The notes under the pieces: model-generated
What the model was told of the DNA's origin: nothing
What the model saw: the letters and a program-made list of their open reading frames with translations, nothing else
Database searches by the model: none
In this document: piece after piece, positions 19,504 to 27,868 of the stretch
How the letters are laid out: every line of letters starts with the position of its first letter
Position numbering within the stretch: the stretch's first letter is position 1
Source of the DNA: a virus
IMG/VR virus record: IMGVR_UViG_3300020281_000052
Location: 1 to 40,680 of that record
Direction: 5' to 3' (one strand)
Length of the DNA stretch: 40,680 nucleotides
Translations under genes and position numbers: made by a program

Positions 19504-22500
19504 TTAGTATCCGCCACCGCCACCACTAGGTGGAGAACTTGGAGGACTTGGAGGTGGGGTTGATTGATTACCAGTTGTTGTAGTCTGTGTACCACCACCA
19601 GAAGTGGTAGATGTCTGGGTCGGATTGGCCGCGAATCCAGATTGAGAACTTACTGCATCTGTTAATGACGTTGTAGTTGTCGTAGCTGCATCTGTACCTT
19701 GTAATGGTAATACAACTTGATCAGCAGTAGATGTTGTACCTGATACAGTCGATGCATCTGGGATTGCATCAGCATTTGCAATACTTGCATCAGGAGTAGT
19801 GTAGATAATAACACTAAACTTAGTATGAACTGCACCTGTCATCAAAATTCCATTGTTATGTGAATGATATGCACCATAGTAAGGACGACCATTTACAAAT
19901 CCAACTGGTATTTTAGCAGATTGAGTTGACCAGTAACCTACACAATCAATAATTCTCTTATATCCATATGTTTCAACGGGTTCTTGGTTATCCAAGATAG
20001 GATAAATCTTTGCACCTTTACCAGTTTCAGAAAGAAGTTTGATGTTTGGTAATTCATCATATAAAACTGGTTCAAGAATATCGGCACCAACCAATTTACC
20101 CAAAGAGACAACAGGTTTAAGTGCAGTTGTATTGAAATTGTCAGTATCTTTATAACCAGATCCAGTATTAACAATATTGATAGTGTTGATGTAACCACCT
20201 TCTTTTGCTGCTCTGACTACTCTATTAGGAGTATCATTTGTAATAGTCTCTGGACAAACATTAGGTGGATATGATTGACCAGGAGATTTAACAGTGATTC
20301 TTAATAACTGACCATATGTAGAAGATCCCGTATTAAAATCAATCTTTGCCTCGGCAATACATCCAAACCCTTGGTTTGAGTGATCCTTTACAACAATTTT
20401 TGGTGTTTTCTTATATCCCTCACCAGGATCCACAACTTGAATTGCAAGAACACCAGTTCCACCAACGGCAGCAGCAAATTGTCCAACTTCTTCCTCTGTT
20501 GGTATTCTTTCAAAAATTGGAGATACTGTTGCATTTTTAGTTGCATTACCACCAATAATTTCAACAATCAAACCACTGCATATAGGTGGTCCTGTATAAC
20601 ACTTACCTAATACTCCTCCATCATATGTTGGATCAGCAGAGTATGGGGTTTCATTTTGGAACAATAATTGTTTATCTCTTGATTCACCAGCAGCAATTGG
20701 AGTTACTCTCATTACTCTGTCCTTATCTACAACTGGAACAGTGTATCCACCACCACCTAAAACTATACCAAAATTAGGTGCACCATCAACAGGTTCAATA
20801 GGTTCGTAAACTTCTGGTGATGACCAGACATAATCAGTAACATCAATATTACCATTGATTGGTTCTAATGGAATGAGATATGGTTTACATGCTTCTTCTA
20901 ATCCATAACCAATTTCAACTGTTGCTCTAACCATTAAATTTTCTGCAACACATTTGGGAACATCTGCAGGACTTTCTGCAATAAATCTTAGTGTTCTTGC
21001 CACATGAGTGTTCATTCTGGATGTGACATCATCTTCTACAGTTTGTAAGATATCATTTTGTGCTTCTTCAAATGCAACAATAGGATCTTCAAATTCAAGT
21101 TGTCTATCTAATCCTGCTTGATGTGCTGCTACAGTCATTGCAGTTGTAATACCAGTATTTCCTGCTTGAAACTGTCCAATACCTGACGTTGTAATACCAA
21201 GAGCTTGATAGTACAATGCATTAAGTTTTCTCTCATAGAAAAGTTTATATTGTTTCTCTAAACCATCAGGAGTTCTACTTGTAACTTCATTATTAACTTG
21301 CTTCAAAGAAATCTCAATCATCGGTCTAATGACCTTAATTATTTTTTCTGCTGTTCTTGCAATTTCCTTATTTGAATCGTAAACTCCTCTAGTTGTTTGT
21401 AGTTTAGTAACAGTATTATTGATAGCAGAATCGATACTAGAAATAGCAGTGCTTCCACCCGCAGGTTCAACTCTTAGACCATTTGCCAAACTATCTGTAT
21501 TTGGTGTACCAGACTTTTTATTTCTTGCCATCTGTGAACTGGCATTTCTTGCAGAGATTAAATTGTCCAGTGCATCATTACCTGAAGGAATAATCGCAGG
21601 TAGAGTTGATTGGTTTTGATATCCACCTGGTTGAGTAATATACTTGGCAAGGTTTGCATTTGATATTGATGCAAATGACTTAATATTATTTGCAATCGTG
21701 GCAGCATCTTGTCCAATAGAAGCAACAATACCAGTAGCAGCTTCTGTTGCCTTTAGTGCCTGTGTTGCAGCACCTAAAAGATCACCTGCTTGTGCTGATT
21801 TAACTGCTCCAGAAATTGCCTCTGATATTACACTTGATGATCCACTCAAAACACCCTGAGTAGCACCTCTAATTGCTCCACCAGCATTACTAATAACATT
21901 TGCTTGTTGACCAGCAACACCTGGAACCTCTGCTATTCCTTGACTTACTGCTCCTAATGCACTATCTAACGATCCTGATACAGACTCTAATTGATCTGTT
22001 AAGTTTCCACCTAATAAACCATCAACAACTCCCCCTTGAGAATTCTTGGGGTTTCTTGCATCAGGAAGATTGACAACTCCTTGGTTATCATTTGCTTCTT
22101 CCTGACCCATCTTGGAAGTTGCAACAATCTCATCAGTGTAACCACTAAAAGGTTTAAATTCTTGACTATCTCCATCCTTTGCTTCTCCACTCTTTACCTG
22201 AGGAGTTCTTCCAAATAAACCTAAAATAACAGGGAGTTGTCCATCATCTCCATCTAAGAAGAATCCGAATACAACGTCTCCCTGTCTAATCATACAAGAC
22301 TCCGACGTGTTCGCTGCACCACTACCTGCAGTAGGTGGCATTAACACATGTGCATACGGTAGGTCATCATCTGTAATAGTATCATTAAAGGGATGGTACC
22401 CCATGATTCTAATTTTATATCTATTGCCCCAACCACCTTTTCTTTGTTTTCTATTTTTCTTGGAAGGTGCTACTTGAGCAATAAACCATCTAAATCCATC

Positions 22501-22542
22501 ACGTCCTACAAAATTACTTTTAAACGTTGCTTCATCTATCAT
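19504..22542 (-). CDS. gp5: gp5-like baseplate hub / spike protein (1012 aa)
   Basis: The N-terminal ~115 residues form the gp5/VgrG OB-fold: DGFRWFIAQVAP, then YKIRIMGYHPFND, LPYAHVLMPPTAGSG and GDVVFGFFLDGDDGQLPVILG. In T4, gp5 makes the trimeric puncturing spike on gp27. The central ~450 residues are Ala/Ser-rich helical sequence. The T4 lysozyme domain is absent: no Glu-Asp-Thr pattern of the E-D-T family was found. The protein is nearly twice the length of T4 gp5 and ends in Thr/Ser/Pro/Gly-rich low complexity (TTTTSLTDAVS, PPPSPPSSPPSGGGGG). Its ATG overlaps the CP12 stop (TAATG). Cell-wall cleavage is probably supplied by the neighbouring M15-domain protein. Confidence 0.8.
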   Translation of the reverse strand: MIDEATFKSNFVGRDGFRWFIAQVAPSKKNRKQRKGGWGNRYKIRIMGYHPFNDTITDDDLPYAHVLMPPTAGSGAANTSESCMIRQGDVVFGFFLDGDDGQLPVILGLFGRTPQVKSGEAKDGDSQEFKPFSGYTDEIVATSKMGQEEANDNQGVVNLPDARNPKNSQGGVVDGLLGGNLTDQLESVSGSLDSALGAVSQGIAEVPGVAGQQANVISNAGGAIRGATQGVLSGSSSVISEAISGAVKSAQAGDLLGAATQALKATEAATGIVASIGQDAATIANNIKSFASISNANLAKYITQPGGYQNQSTLPAIIPSGNDALDNLISARNASSQMARNKKSGTPNTDSLANGLRVEPAGGSTAISSIDSAINNTVTKLQTTRGVYDSNKEIARTAEKIIKVIRPMIEISLKQVNNEVTSRTPDGLEKQYKLFYERKLNALYYQALGITTSGIGQFQAGNTGITTAMTVAAHQAGLDRQLEFEDPIVAFEEAQNDILQTVEDDVTSRMNTHVARTLRFIAESPADVPKCVAENLMVRATVEIGYGLEEACKPYLIPLEPINGNIDVTDYVWSSPEVYEPIEPVDGAPNFGIVLGGGGYTVPVVDKDRVMRVTPIAAGESRDKQLLFQNETPYSADPTYDGGVLGKCYTGPPICSGLIVEIIGGNATKNATVSPIFERIPTEEEVGQFAAAVGGTGVLAIQVVDPGEGYKKTPKIVVKDHSNQGFGCIAEAKIDFNTGSSTYGQLLRITVKSPGQSYPPNVCPETITNDTPNRVVRAAKEGGYINTINIVNTGSGYKDTDNFNTTALKPVVSLGKLVGADILEPVLYDELPNIKLLSETGKGAKIYPILDNQEPVETYGYKRIIDCVGYWSTQSAKIPVGFVNGRPYYGAYHSHNNGILMTGAVHTKFSVIIYTTPDASIANADAIPDASTVSGTTSTADQVVLPLQGTDAATTTTTSLTDAVSSQSGFAANPTQTSTTSGGGTQTTTTGNQSTPPPSPPSSPPSGGGGGY

Positions 22543-22787: not shown

Positions 22788-24098
22788 TTATTTTCTACCG
22801 TAAGAATCTCTCACTAATAACATTGATGTAAGGGAGTCTAACTGGGTAAATTGATGGCAAAGTTCTTTTATCATATATAGTCCACTTGTGTGCTCATCAT
22901 ATTCATTTGACTTATCAAAACTTTGATTTCTAAAGTTTAATTTAATAATCATACCAACTCTTAGATCAGAATTACATGCTACTGTAACACGAACTGCCTG
23001 AGTCATTAATAGATTATAACGAGCAATAGCTTGGGACTGGATTTTTTCAGGTTCTGCGTTTTTTTCAATTTTGACATCTTTATCCATTGTACCACGATCT
23101 AGTATTCCTGTCATTATCCTTGTTGGATAATCTCCAAGACTTTCACTACTACCTGCTTCCATTGGTGGTAATACAGGAGGTTCTCCCATTACGTCCAGTT
23201 GTTCTGCGAAGTCTTTTAACTTATATGTAAACTGTGGAAATTCAAATGTCAGGGGATCAAAGAAAATGTTTTTAGATGACATGGCACCAGTTCTAAGTTT
23301 TTCTAGAATATTTGTATTCTGCTTAAAAGCATAAGACATAATCTTAGTTCCTGTATCTTCGACACCAGATTCAAGTTCTGTTTTACTTACACTATCTTCT
23401 TTATATTCTGCGTATGCTTCTTGCTTGATTAGTTCATCAATTGACCTAAAGTAATGTCCATCAAGTGTTTCATAAAAAAGATATCCTGCTGTTGAGTCTT
23501 TTTTACCACTGGCAGGAATTGCCTTGGCTGCTAACCATGTTAGTACAGTAAATGGTTTTCTGAGATTACCAATAAATCCATATTGATTTTTAGAATCGTC
23601 AAGGTTTTCACTTGGTAACTCAACTAATAAAAATTCTTTGGCAATTTGTTTTACAGATTCAGAAATCTTTTGAGTAGTTGGATATTTCTTTGTTACTCTG
23701 GCAGTTTCATTTGTAATTGCAGCTTTAGAAACTAAATTCAATGTAAATACTTCCTTATTACCATCAGCAGCAGATATATCACTAACACCACCAACATAAA
23801 GTGGATTACTACTCAAATCAATTCCATCACCGATACGAGTTTTTAATTTAACGGATACTCTTTCTCCACCAACAATAGGTAAACCTTGTAATATTGCTTT
23901 CTTACCACCAGTTCCTTTATAATCATCAACATCACCACCACCAGAACTCATAACCAATACTTTGGCAGTTAATGTTGGAGAAAATAAATCTTCAAAATAT
24001 TGAAAAGATATCACACCAAATCTAAGGTCTACGGTTTTAGAACCATCGTTAGACTCGATTATAAATTCTTCGTATCTTGCTGCTTGATCTGCTGCCAT
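22788..24098 (-). CDS. gp27: gp27-like baseplate hub protein
   Basis: 436 residues with the hub-ring layout of T4 gp27/VgrG: EEFIIESNDGSKTVDLRFGVISFQYFEDLFSPTLTAKVLV at the N-terminus, VSVKLKTRIGDGI and YVGGVSDISAADGNKEVFTLNLVSKAAITNETARV around 90-140, then a second barrel near residues 320-420 (VACNSDLRVGMIIKLNF). It forms the trimeric central ring that carries gp5 and attaches to the tail tube. Located immediately before CP12 and gp5, its usual partner. Longer than T4 gp27 (391 aa). No enzymatic motif. Confidence 0.85.
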   Translation of the reverse strand: MAADQAARYEEFIIESNDGSKTVDLRFGVISFQYFEDLFSPTLTAKVLVMSSGGGDVDDYKGTGGKKAILQGLPIVGGERVSVKLKTRIGDGIDLSSNPLYVGGVSDISAADGNKEVFTLNLVSKAAITNETARVTKKYPTTQKISESVKQIAKEFLLVELPSENLDDSKNQYGFIGNLRKPFTVLTWLAAKAIPASGKKDSTAGYLFYETLDGHYFRSIDELIKQEAYAEYKEDSVSKTELESGVEDTGTKIMSYAFKQNTNILEKLRTGAMSSKNIFFDPLTFEFPQFTYKLKDFAEQLDVMGEPPVLPPMEAGSSESLGDYPTRIMTGILDRGTMDKDVKIEKNAEPEKIQSQAIARYNLLMTQAVRVTVACNSDLRVGMIIKLNFRNQSFDKSNEYDEHTSGLYMIKELCHQFTQLDSLTSMLLVRDSYGRK

Positions 24099-24099
24099 G

Positions 24100-25548
24100 T
24101 TATACGTACGCTAATGAGGTTAGTATGTTTTCTTTATGCATAGTATTTAACACCTGTTCTTTGTTAGGTGCATCATCAAGTGTTCCATCACCTCCAGATG
24201 AAACTATTACTTTTCCTTGTCCCGTAGCTGCCTTCTCTTGTGCTTCTTGACCAAATAATGGCAGTAATGCCTTCATAAGTTCACCTTGCATTTGTGCCTC
24301 TTTAGATTTTTCTTCAACATCTCCAGAAGAAGAAATATTTTCTGTAGTTGCAGCTTTATTACTTGGTTTTGGATCAACTTTTGCTCTATAAGATCTACCC
24401 CTTCGGTGTCGTCTACCTCTGGTCTTTGCTTCTACACCTTTGAAAGAAACATGGATATGATCCATATGGTCAGCATCAGTTTTCCACTTTATTTCATTAA
24501 TACCATATTTCTTCTTATTAGTCTTAAGCATTGCAGCGATCTTATCTAATCCCTTTTCACCTTGTCCTAAGATAGGAATATCAAGTGCTTCACCAAAATT
24601 ATGGAAAGACTTGGCAGATCTCTGCATTACAGCTTCTTGACCAGAACCAGTGTAACCTTGTTCTATATTGAAATCTGGATGCTGCCAGACAGCAACACCC
24701 TGTGAATTGAGGAACTTACCAAGAGCAACTGCTGCCTGATAACCCTTAGTTGGTTTAGTTTTTGCTTTACCATCACCAGACATATCACTATTCTTATCGT
24801 TAGACTCTTTATCTTCTGGGAAATCTTCTTCGTTATCTTCTATCTCATTATCCTTTTCCTTATTCTTATCCTTTTTATCTAACAACTTATCTTTGTTTAC
24901 TTTTTTATTCTCTAATTTATTATACTTTTCATCAATATCCTTTGGATCTTCATAGTCATATCCCCACAATGCATTAAAAGCATTACCCATTCTTTGGAAC
25001 ATTTCACCCCATCCCTCTGTCATACCTTTAAATATTTGTGCTATCCCTTCTTTATCTAATGGTTCTCCTGTAAATAAAGACTTACCTATTTTCCAGAAAA
25101 CTCGGATTATACCCCACGTTACTTTGGCAATCTGTTTAAAAACTGACATTATGCCATCAAAATATGCTTTCGCTCTTGGTAATATTTTTTTAACATGTCC
25201 AACAAGTTCAGGTATTTTACCTGCTAACCATCCTGTAAGAACAGCTCCAAGAGCCATGATAACACCTTCCAACATGTTACCTGCCTTTTCCTTGGCAAAC
25301 CTAGCAACTGGGTTTTCTTGTCCTTCTTTTTTCTCTACTTTTAGACTTGCTGCTTCATCTTTTTTCCTTTCCTGACCTTTAATCATTGCTTCTTGAGCTT
25401 TCAAAAACTTTCGTCTCTTCTCTACAAAATTACCTTTCTTACCTAGAAGTTTAGATATATTAAGAACAGTAGTATTAATACTCTTCATTTGAAGAGTTGA
25501 GTTTCTTAATTGATTTTGATTAACCTTTGGTAGTTCTACTTTTGCCAT
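24100..25548 (-). CDS. Tape-measure-like tail protein with M15 peptidase domain (482 aa)
   Basis: Three regions. Residues 1-90 are basic and coiled-coil-like. Residues 91-195 are hydrophobic (MLEGVIMALGAVLTGWLAGKIPELVG, FKQIAKVTWGIIRVFWKIG), matching the paralogue encoded next to it. Residues 205-265 are a Lys/Asp/Glu/Asn-rich linker. The domain at about 268-370 holds SFHNFGEALDI (H316, D323) and KTDADHMDHIHVSF (H361-H366), the zinc site pattern of M15 D,D-carboxypeptidases and L-Ala-D-Glu endopeptidases. It likely cleaves host peptidoglycan during DNA entry, standing in for the lysozyme domain missing from gp5. The C-terminus is basic (RGRRHRRGR), then Ser/Glu-rich. Placement next to gp27 and gp5 supports a hub location. 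Confidence 0.75.
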   Translation of the reverse strand: MAKVELPKVNQNQLRNSTLQMKSINTTVLNISKLLGKKGNFVEKRRKFLKAQEAMIKGQERKKDEAASLKVEKKEGQENPVARFAKEKAGNMLEGVIMALGAVLTGWLAGKIPELVGHVKKILPRAKAYFDGIMSVFKQIAKVTWGIIRVFWKIGKSLFTGEPLDKEGIAQIFKGMTEGWGEMFQRMGNAFNALWGYDYEDPKDIDEKYNKLENKKVNKDKLLDKKDKNKEKDNEIEDNEEDFPEDKESNDKNSDMSGDGKAKTKPTKGYQAAVALGKFLNSQGVAVWQHPDFNIEQGYTGSGQEAVMQRSAKSFHNFGEALDIPILGQGEKGLDKIAAMLKTNKKKYGINEIKWKTDADHMDHIHVSFKGVEAKTRGRRHRRGRSYRAKVDPKPSNKAATTENISSSGDVEEKSKEAQMQGELMKALLPLFGQEAQEKAATGQGKVIVSSGGDGTLDDAPNKEQVLNTMHKENILTSLAYV

Positions 25549-25558
25549 TTATCTTACC

Positions 25559-26983
25559 TCAAAAGTGTGCTGTGCAATTATACTGAATTGCAGAGAATAA
25601 AGTGTAGAAATTACTAGGATTATTAGATGGAATTGACTTAGATGCAGTGCTTCCAGTACTACTAGGTCTAGGATTAGGACCTGAAGGACCGCCCATACCA
25701 CCTGCATTAGCAACAGGTAATGGTGGAATGACAAATGTAGCTTGAGACTTTGGTTTTTCTTGAACAAATGTTTTATCTTTTGTAATTCCTTGCACCTTAC
25801 CAGTAGGAGTCACTCCAGAAATTTGCTCTTCATACATTGCTCGTACTTTTGGTGAGAAATTCATATAATTACTCTCAGACATTCTCTTTGATATTCCAAT
25901 CATTTTCATTTGATCTTCAGTAAGTTTATCACCTACAGGTTGACCAGCGATTAAATTAGCTTTAAATTTAGTACCCGTACCCTTCATATCACCAACTACA
26001 TTATTTTTATTAGTGATATTTGCAGACTTACCTTTCTTTTGTCTCTCTTGTTCTTTAAGCCAACTTTTCTTTAGTGCTTCCTCAAAACCCTCGTCACCTT
26101 CTTTTAAACCATTTATAGATGTGTCTGAAGCATCATAATTTGCTCTCCACTTATCATAAGTCTCACCTTTTCCTTTTTTATTCCTTCTTTTATTTCTCCT
26201 GCTCTTTCTTCCAGACGACACTGATGATACCTTCTCAGTTTTGTCTTCACTATCACCAAATCCTAAGAATCCTGCTATTGCTCCGAAGGTATTAGAAATT
26301 TTCTTCTTAACGTTTTGCACAAAATCAACCATTTTCTTTATGGTTTTAAAGACTTTTTGTGCAATACCATAAACAAAATCTATAAATTTCTTGATTATAC
26401 CTCCAACAAATTCAAATCCTTTCTTTAAGAAATCAACTATAGTTCTTATAGTTTTCACAATGAAGTTAAATGTCCACTTAATTGCCTTCCACAATACATT
26501 AAAAATTTTAGTTATAGTCGGACCAACTTTTTCCCATGCTTTCTTAAGACCATCTATTATCTCTGGTAATTTACCTGCTAACCATCCCCCAAGAATAGCT
26601 AAGAATCCATTTATCAGTCCATCTAATATACCACCAAAATTAGTTACTTCCTTGGCAATATTACCAATCTTCTTTATTCCTCCACCGATAGCACTACCAA
26701 GTCCTTTTCCTTCTTCTTTCTTTCTTACCTGACCCTTTGCTTGTACTGCTGCTTTCTTTTTGTCTACTAAATCCTTTTTATCTTTTTTCAAACCATCTGC
26801 TAACATAGCATAGATTGCTTGTAAATTTTTATTAATACCTACTAAAAGTGAATCATTAAAACCAGCAACAACAACTTGTTGAACACCAACAGCAGCACCC
26901 TGAGGCTGACTATTTCTGCCCATCATATTTTTAGCAAGAGCTCTGCCCGTGCTTCGTTGTCCTCTTTGGTATGAATCAGCCAT
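25559..26983 (-). CDS. Tape-measure-like tail/hub protein (474 aa), paralogue of the M15 protein
   Basis: Residues 1-115: basic with Lys-rich linker (LKKDKKDLVDKKKAAVQAKG). Residues 117-250: amphipathic hydrophobic helices (FLAILGGWLAGKLPEIIDGLKKAW, FNVLWKAIKWTFNFIVKTIRTIVDFLKKGF), the same GWLAGKLPEI motif and helical pattern as the M15-domain neighbour. Residues 270-310: very basic (SSGRKSRRNKRRNKKGKG). The rest is polar. This looks like a baseplate hub/tail-lysis-type structural protein related to gp29 tape-measure function. It starts 8 bases inside the gp51 gene end. T4 gp29 homology is not visible by eye, so the name is by position and composition. Confidence 0.65.
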   Translation of the reverse strand: MADSYQRGQRSTGRALAKNMMGRNSQPQGAAVGVQQVVVAGFNDSLLVGINKNLQAIYAMLADGLKKDKKDLVDKKKAAVQAKGQVRKKEEGKGLGSAIGGGIKKIGNIAKEVTNFGGILDGLINGFLAILGGWLAGKLPEIIDGLKKAWEKVGPTITKIFNVLWKAIKWTFNFIVKTIRTIVDFLKKGFEFVGGIIKKFIDFVYGIAQKVFKTIKKMVDFVQNVKKKISNTFGAIAGFLGFGDSEDKTEKVSSVSSGRKSRRNKRRNKKGKGETYDKWRANYDASDTSINGLKEGDEGFEEALKKSWLKEQERQKKGKSANITNKNNVVGDMKGTGTKFKANLIAGQPVGDKLTEDQMKMIGISKRMSESNYMNFSPKVRAMYEEQISGVTPTGKVQGITKDKTFVQEKPKSQATFVIPPLPVANAGGMGGPSGPNPRPSSTGSTASKSIPSNNPSNFYTLFSAIQYNCTAHF

Positions 26984-27151: not shown

Positions 27152-27868
27152 TTAGACGAAAAAAGATGCCAAGCCCTCAAGTACTACATTATTATCAACC
27201 CCAGTGTTGGGATTCTTAACTACCAACTTATGTGATAGTTTAGGCATGGTATCAAAAAACTGTTCTACTTCTTTGAACTGTTTGGTGTTTAGTTGATCCA
27301 AGAATTCGATTCTTTCTTTTTCAGAATAATCAGTTGCTGGCCATGCTTCTTCATCAGTATAAATTTGGTCAATGCATCCAGCAATCATTTTGAATGATGC
27401 ATCTACATTAGTACCTTCAAAATCAAAGTTACTCTTAATAAACTGTTCCATTGAAGGATACTTTAACCTTAAGGAAAGGTTTTTATCCAGTTTAATGTCT
27501 TGCTTATGTTTTTTATTTCTCTCTACTTTAATATCATCAAGGTTGACTGATATATCTACTTTTGTTTCACCGTCATCTTCACAGGTTACAACTAAATCTA
27601 CAACTTCACCGACAGACTTAGCACGAACATTTAAGAAGAGATACTCAATATCAAAAGTAGGTAATGAGTCTATCTTAACACCTCTAGTGAGGATACATGC
27701 ATTAAGAACATCAGTAATTGCAGCAGTTATTTGTTTTGTATCTTCCGATTCCATTGCAAGGATAAGGATTTTCTCTTCCTTGACTAGAAATGGACGATAT
27801 TTAACTTTCTTGTTATTTGATGGTAAAGTCAACTCATAAGTAGGAGTCGCAATGGTTGGTAATGGCAT
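27152..27868 (-). CDS. gp26: gp26-like baseplate hub subunit
   Basis: 238 residues. The N-terminal PTYELTLPSNNKKVKYRPFLVKEEKILILAMES is the recognisable T4 gp26/baseplate family opening. IEYLFLNVRAKSVGEVVDLVVTCEDDGETKVDIS (about 80-113) follows, then helical charged sequence with EQFFDTMPKLSHKL near the end. In T4 gp26 belongs to the central hub; in this family it is also likened to the T4 baseplate protein family that includes phage-tail assembly chaperones. The ATG is preceded by an AT-rich CTATATAATATACTG. The stop precedes the gp51 start by 2 bases. Confidence 0.8.
   Translation of the reverse strand: MPLPTIATPTYELTLPSNNKKVKYRPFLVKEEKILILAMESEDTKQITAAITDVLNACILTRGVKIDSLPTFDIEYLFLNVRAKSVGEVVDLVVTCEDDGETKVDISVNLDDIKVERNKKHKQDIKLDKNLSLRLKYPSMEQFIKSNFDFEGTNVDASFKMIAGCIDQIYTDEEAWPATDYSEKERIEFLDQLNTKQFKEVEQFFDTMPKLSHKLVVKNPNTGVDNNVVLEGLASFFV

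Follow-up and report, generated by a model that had tools for sequence, protein, structure and literature searches.

Where does a T4-like virus keep its wall-opening enzyme when gp5 has none? In T4 a GH24 lysozyme domain lies inside gp5. The DNA analysed here (the window: all 40,680 nt of IMG/VR record IMGVR_UViG_3300020281_000052, a fragment of an incomplete genome) encodes a gp5 that has the OB domain in common with T4 gp5 but lacks GH24; the job of wall cutting during tube penetration presumably falls to a predicted peptidase domain in a nearby protein instead. Because the nearest annotated relatives of the window are P-SSM2/P-SSM5 and single-cell marine viruses, we assign it to the cyanophage-type T4-like viruses. 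The genes concerned follow each other in the order gp26, X, Y, gp27-like and gp5:

27152..27868, minus strand: gp26 baseplate hub (T4_baseplate, Pfam E 8.7e-75)
25559..26983, minus strand: X, 474-aa helical paralogue of Y (E 3e-8 to Y), tape-measure-like (tape-measure PHROGs, E 5e-6)
24100..25548, minus strand: Y, 482 aa, helical N-terminus and predicted M15-like zinc peptidase; proposed tail-associated lysin (ORF, domain searches, locus survey)
22788..24098, minus strand: gp27-like tail protein (phrog_350; homologue of T4-GC 15; PHROG match and annotations of homologues)
19504..22542, minus strand: gp5, 1012 aa, OB-type N-terminus, no wall-hydrolase domain (family matches)

No lysin domain was detected in window X, and the profiles found no further lysin among the ORFs of this 40.7-kb fragment.

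An M15-like domain in Y

The first-pass annotation, which was made from the sequence alone, had pointed to an M15 zinc pattern (H316, D323, H361-H366) in Y. This pattern is indeed present, as S-F-H316-N-F-G-E-A-L-D323 followed by H361-M-D-H364-I-H366, and its His and Asp residues are nearly or fully invariant in relatives. The protein can be divided as follows:

24904..25548, minus strand: Y residues 1-215, predicted long helices with a GWLxxKxP motif (secondary structure at low confidence; profile with controls)
24766..24903, minus strand: Y residues 216-261, charged linker (alignment A8)
24433..24765, minus strand: Y residues 262-372, predicted M15-like (clan MD, VldE-like) zinc peptidase domain (profile, conservation, model)
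24619..24621, minus strand: R310, candidate catalytic or substrate arginine (invariant; putative equivalent of VldE R294)
24601..24603, minus strand: H316, zinc ligand by analogy with VldE H301 and the SRHMYGHAAD motif of 1LBU (invariant; register; PMC11667670)
24580..24582, minus strand: D323, zinc ligand by analogy with VldE D308 (invariant; register)
24457..24468, minus strand: H361-M-D-H364, in which H361 would be the catalytic base and H364 would assist it, like VldE H370 and H373 (PMC11667670)
24451..24453, minus strand: H366, zinc ligand by analogy with VldE H375, forming an HxH motif together with H364 (invariant; register)

Eight loci matched all or part of Y, and a profile of the domain extended the family to 34 loci in IMG/VR. 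Among the full-length proteins R310, H316, E320, D323, D363, H364, H366 and the stretch W288-Q-H-P-D-F293 are invariant (24 of 24), and H361 nearly so. In a set of 29 domain sequences, with identities down to 29%, the invariant residues include H316, D323, E352, H364 and H366.

Matches to known families are weak when single proteins are used. Pfam M15_4 hits window Y below threshold (E 0.97), the search of the window by family gave no PF08291 match, and phmmer with Y alone found nothing in the PDB. Even the best family members (E 0.009-0.019) stay short of the curated Pfam M15 cut-offs (PF08291, PF13539); we therefore call the domain M15-like and its family a divergent subfamily. A search of a bacterial and archaeal genome collection found no relatives of this subfamily. 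A profile of the 29 sequences was more informative: against PDB sequences it ranks VldE first (9flh, E 7e-4), and weaker matches in the same search are 1LBU, LysB4 and Ply500 (E 0.1-0.4), all of them wall peptidases of clan MD. In the profile alignment SxHxxGxAxD is in register with 1LBU, LysB4 and Ply500, and HxDHxH with 1LBU. Unlike the domain of Y, which is joined to a helical tail protein, the zinc peptidase 1LBU of Streptomyces albus and the phage endolysins LysB4 and Ply500 are free enzymes.

The model of full-length Y is poor (pLDDT 51), and in a fold search its helices dominate, yielding no meaningful match; the domain was therefore modelled alone. This AlphaFold model has a pLDDT of 74 and a pTM of 0.70. 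Foldseek against the PDB returned VldE as the best two matches (probability 1.00 for 9flk, 0.98 for the second), followed by LdcB, although the VldE match is modest (E 5e-3, TM about 0.5); a P-SSM3 protein is among the best viral matches. Modelling thus agrees with the proposed fold. The loop that bears H316 (model residues 51-60) has a pLDDT below 50, so the zinc site is a prediction from the alignments and not from the geometry of the model.

The C-terminal domain of VldE (Spr1875; PDB 9flh/9flk/9flm) thus comes out on top in both profile and structure searches. In VldE, a proven peptidoglycan L,D-endopeptidase, H301, D308 and H375 bind the catalytic zinc, with H370 as proposed base and H373 assisting (PMC11667670). 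These residues correspond to H316, D323, H366, H361 and H364 of Y, respectively. The arginines are spaced slightly differently: R294 of VldE sits 7 residues ahead of the zinc histidine and R310 of Y 6. Differences are considerable elsewhere, as VldE is a bacterial enzyme of cell-wall remodelling with a cell-wall-binding module and a multi-zinc loop, and shares about 20% identity with the domain of Y. Taken by its profile, conservation and model, the region of Y from about residue 262 to 372 is a predicted M15-like zinc peptidase of a divergent subfamily.

Two further observations on Y proteins were discarded. A sub-threshold match of Y to DAGK_cat (E 0.0013) is attributed to chance, given that it concerns a low-complexity C-terminus and is absent from other members. 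A domain swap suspected in one relative (L009) was rejected since the contig ends within Y.

No recognisable wall hydrolase in gp5

Only the N-terminus of window gp5 (residues 1-158) aligns with gp5 families (phrog_1922, E 1e-62). The absence of a lysozyme from this protein, as claimed initially, is borne out by a search for glycosidases at the sequence level, which found none in residues 120-700. Pfam recognises Gp5_OB in 31 of 57 gp5 proteins including that of the window, and wall-hydrolase families in none of the 57. Likewise, profiles of GH24, glucosaminidase, M23, M15, VanY and Amidase_5 matched none of 61 gp5 proteins. A GH24 profile built from cassettes found in Y proteins (see below) recovers T4 gp5 at 5.8e-9 as positive control and has no match in window gp5 or 60 relatives. 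Some relatives have a gp5 of only 162-271 aa.

Near the C-terminus of window gp5 (residues about 886-906) lies YYGAYHSHNNGILMTGAVHT, which includes HxH. Presumably this recalls the metal-binding tip of phage spikes.

Survey of the X/Y locus in T4-like cyanophages

Since the gp27 sequences (alignment A2) diverge too much to scan contigs with, gp26 served as the anchor for a survey of 80 further contigs and reference genomes. The order gp26-gp51-X-Y-gp27-gp5 recurs around gp26, and gp26-gp51-X-Y-gp27 is kept in about 60 loci. Residues 1-215 of Y represent a region common to X and most cyanophage Y proteins: of 92 X proteins the profile of the Y N-terminus matches 69, whereas the controls (reversed and shuffled sequences, gp27, gp5 and other ORFs) gave no match. 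On this sequence evidence, X and Y are paralogues.

Wall hydrolases are frequent at this position. According to Pfam, M23 is found in 28 of 73 Y proteins, which also contain SLT_3, SLT, glucosaminidase, Phage_lysozyme2, Hydrolase_2, Phage_lysozyme and Amidase_5/CHAP; they are fewer in X (Phage_lysozyme2, Phage_lysozyme, SLT, VanY and Hydrolase_2). With six home-made profiles alone, a lysin was recognised in X or Y at 42 of 73 loci, and at the other 31 these profiles found none, some of them having other Pfam lysin matches. Among named phages, Y carries GH24 and M23 in ACG-2014f, M23 in S-PM2 and S-B05, and Amidase_5/CHAP in S-CAM7. P-HM2 has VanY in X, and S-CREM2 combines GH19 in X with GH24 in Y. 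For P-SSM5, the nearest annotated relative, Pfam detects no lysin in X or Y.

The M15 subfamily itself is seen only at the X/Y locus, apart from one distant match, and never as a free enzyme. Where it shares an IMG/VR contig with gp27 it is always in Y, the ORF directly upstream of gp27, with the exception of S-H35, where it is in X. Both S-B64 and S-H35 have the M15 domain in X and in Y a glucosaminidase close to that of another relative (L011). Their X gene (832 aa, L001/L002 6252-8750), M15 domain included, is absent from both deposited annotations.

The locus has several variants. A single ORF of about 670-860 aa replaces X and Y in S-CRM01 (L138, 5410-8004) and two further loci (L085, L101). 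One of 75 X proteins (alignment A5) matches the NAD:arginine ADP-ribosyltransferase family PF01129 (E 1.3e-5) and PF03496 is matched once, which is possibly another cargo of the slot. In three Y proteins the C-terminal domain has the M15 motifs the other way round: L086 (12968-15829, aa about 716-855), L035 (3481-5208, aa about 386-520) and L094 (3869-5704, aa about 408-539). Here YH[ED]H[IV]AF comes first, followed by a His...Asp motif resembling SxHxxGxAxD, as might be expected of a circularly permuted M15-like peptidase; hhalign aligns the halves out of order, weakly, and Pfam has no match for this domain in L035 and L086. In the more distant T4-like Sinorhizobium phage phiM12 (L022, 8202-11380), the annotation gives gp5 a muramidase and the gene after it a Peptidase M15 domain.

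Exchange of cassettes

In M15-bearing relatives Y is usually composed of the helical N-terminus, a cassette of about 130 aa, the M15 domain and a tail. The cassette is a glucosaminidase, GH24, Phage_lysozyme2, Hydrolase_2 or a sequence with no Pfam match. An alignment of 24 full-length proteins shows that in the window and its closest relatives (L004-L010) the charged linker stands in place of this cassette, usually a glycosidase, which leaves the peptidase alone.

Among close pairs, L112 and L114 share 89% identity over the N-terminus, 100% over M15 and 95% over gp27, against 17% over the cassette (glucosaminidase versus GH24), and the same pattern is seen in the pairs L121/L128 and L117/L119. 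L114 and L119 show the reverse, with cassettes 88% identical and N-termini 30%. From these alignments, X/Y looks like a slot where different wall hydrolases were exchanged, near-identical phages differing only by the cassette.

These results refine the first interpretation, according to which the M15 module had been moved from gp5 to a neighbour as tail lysin, attacking a peptide rather than a glycan bond. This reading is supported in substance, with an M15-type zinc peptidase predicted in Y and no glycosidase recognised in gp5. 'Moved' is too narrow, however, because the slot is family-wide and the enzyme interchangeable: even GH24 of the T4 gp5 class occurs in some Y proteins. Similarly, 'peptide instead of glycan' describes the small clade of the window and not the family as a whole, as most relatives pair M15 with another cassette, usually a glycosidase, in one protein. 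It seems somewhat more probable than its opposite that T4-like cyanophages as a group lack the gp5 lysozyme and use the paralogous helical X/Y proteins as a plug-in hydrolase slot, reshuffled among close relatives, in which glycosidase plus peptidase is common and single-enzyme forms such as that of the window are reductions.

Virion proteins and tail length

S-CREM2 offers data on the virion. There, 73 unique peptides came from ORF208 and 71 from ORF209, which were named endolysins and tentatively placed in the capsid (PMC10665884). These two proteins (1565 aa with GH19 and 1456 aa with GH24) occupy the positions of X and Y. The profile of the Y N-terminus does not match S-CREM2 Y, which is therefore recognised as Y by its place in the gene order and its hydrolase domain. 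Since the genes adjoin the hub, the tail appears a likelier place for them than the capsid. The homologue of the gp27-like protein (T4-GC15) and gp5 were detected in virions of S-SM1 (PMC3037559).

Y had also been described as tape-measure-like. For Y itself this is less certain: its paralogue X matches tape-measure PHROGs, and Y matches none of them. S-CREM2 has a tail of 418 nm, the longest of isolated cyanomyoviruses, as well as the longest X and Y seen (3021 aa together), compared to 138 nm and 1655 aa for S-N03 and 129 nm and 1671 aa for S-H34. With three phages only, this relation fits a tape-measure role. X and Y of Syn19 are also long (1548 and 1212 aa).

Proposed role of Y and alternatives

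We consider it likely that Y is a tail-associated lysin, with the helical N-terminus at the tail tube, the C-terminal M15-like peptidase directed at the wall, and X/Y as a slot for exchange. The N-terminus of about 215 residues would anchor Y above the gp27/gp5 hub, either inside the tail tube or at its distal end. Upon tail contraction the C-terminal zinc peptidase would be released or exposed, and by cutting a peptide bond of the host's peptidoglycan it would let the tube reach the inner membrane. Y would thereby do the job of the GH24 lysozyme inside T4 gp5; the clade of the window has the peptidase only, and in most M15-bearing relatives another cassette, generally a glycosidase, precedes it. 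For window Y we infer the enzyme activity, the bond cut, the position in the tail, the timing of release and the presence in the virion.

Some records label homologues of X or Y as 'endolysin' or 'peptidase', and many phage endolysins, among them LysB4, EndoT5 and Ply500, are M15 enzymes. Y might accordingly lyse the cell from within when the infection ends and be located among baseplate genes by chance. We regard this as very improbable: the catalytic domain belongs to a protein whose helical region is shared with tape-measure-like X, the gene order around it is conserved in about 60 loci, free enzymes of the subfamily were never seen, and the X/Y pair of S-CREM2 is well represented in virions.

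The other alternatives concern the domain itself. Still less credible is an inactive remnant or a non-catalytic peptidoglycan-binding module, as might be argued from the sub-threshold Pfam matches and the poorly modelled H316 loop; drift after loss of activity would not yield zinc ligands and an HxH motif that are invariant among such distant sequences. We give the least credence to a maturation protease for tail proteins rather than the cell wall. The zinc peptidase fold and the processing of some phage tail proteins speak for it, yet in relatives the slot holds GH24, GH19, glucosaminidase and Phage_lysozyme2, glycan cutters that are unable to process proteins, and the closest structure acts on peptidoglycan (PMC11667670). 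A tail-associated lysin hence remains the preferred reading.

Relation to known systems and significance

Lysins attached to phage tails and the shuffling of domains among tail proteins are already known in general (PMC10684548, PMC10966104); the X/Y arrangement appears to be new. A literature search for M15 enzymes or other lysins in the tails of T4-like cyanophages found no description of the slot. The tail of the Anabaena myophage A-1(L) likewise has wall hydrolases in the hub region, its hub protein gp15 carrying endoglucanase and peptidase domains active on host cells (PMC10966104), but there the domains lie within the hub protein itself, and in the window type in the helical X/Y proteins. 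Lysin-bearing and mosaic tape-measure proteins also combine a tail-tube protein with a wall hydrolase (Smug et al. 2023, PMC10684548). X/Y differs from these in being a two-gene pair of T4-like myoviruses at a fixed position with interchangeable cassettes.

Summarizing, our analysis indicates the likely location of the wall-opening enzyme in an abundant group of ocean myoviruses. It also corrects widespread annotations: 'gp5 tail lysozyme' is used for proteins without lysozyme, and 'endolysins' at this locus are probably tail proteins. Close phages that differ in one lysin cassette form a natural series, and the relation of the tail lysin to host wall and host range therefore becomes testable.
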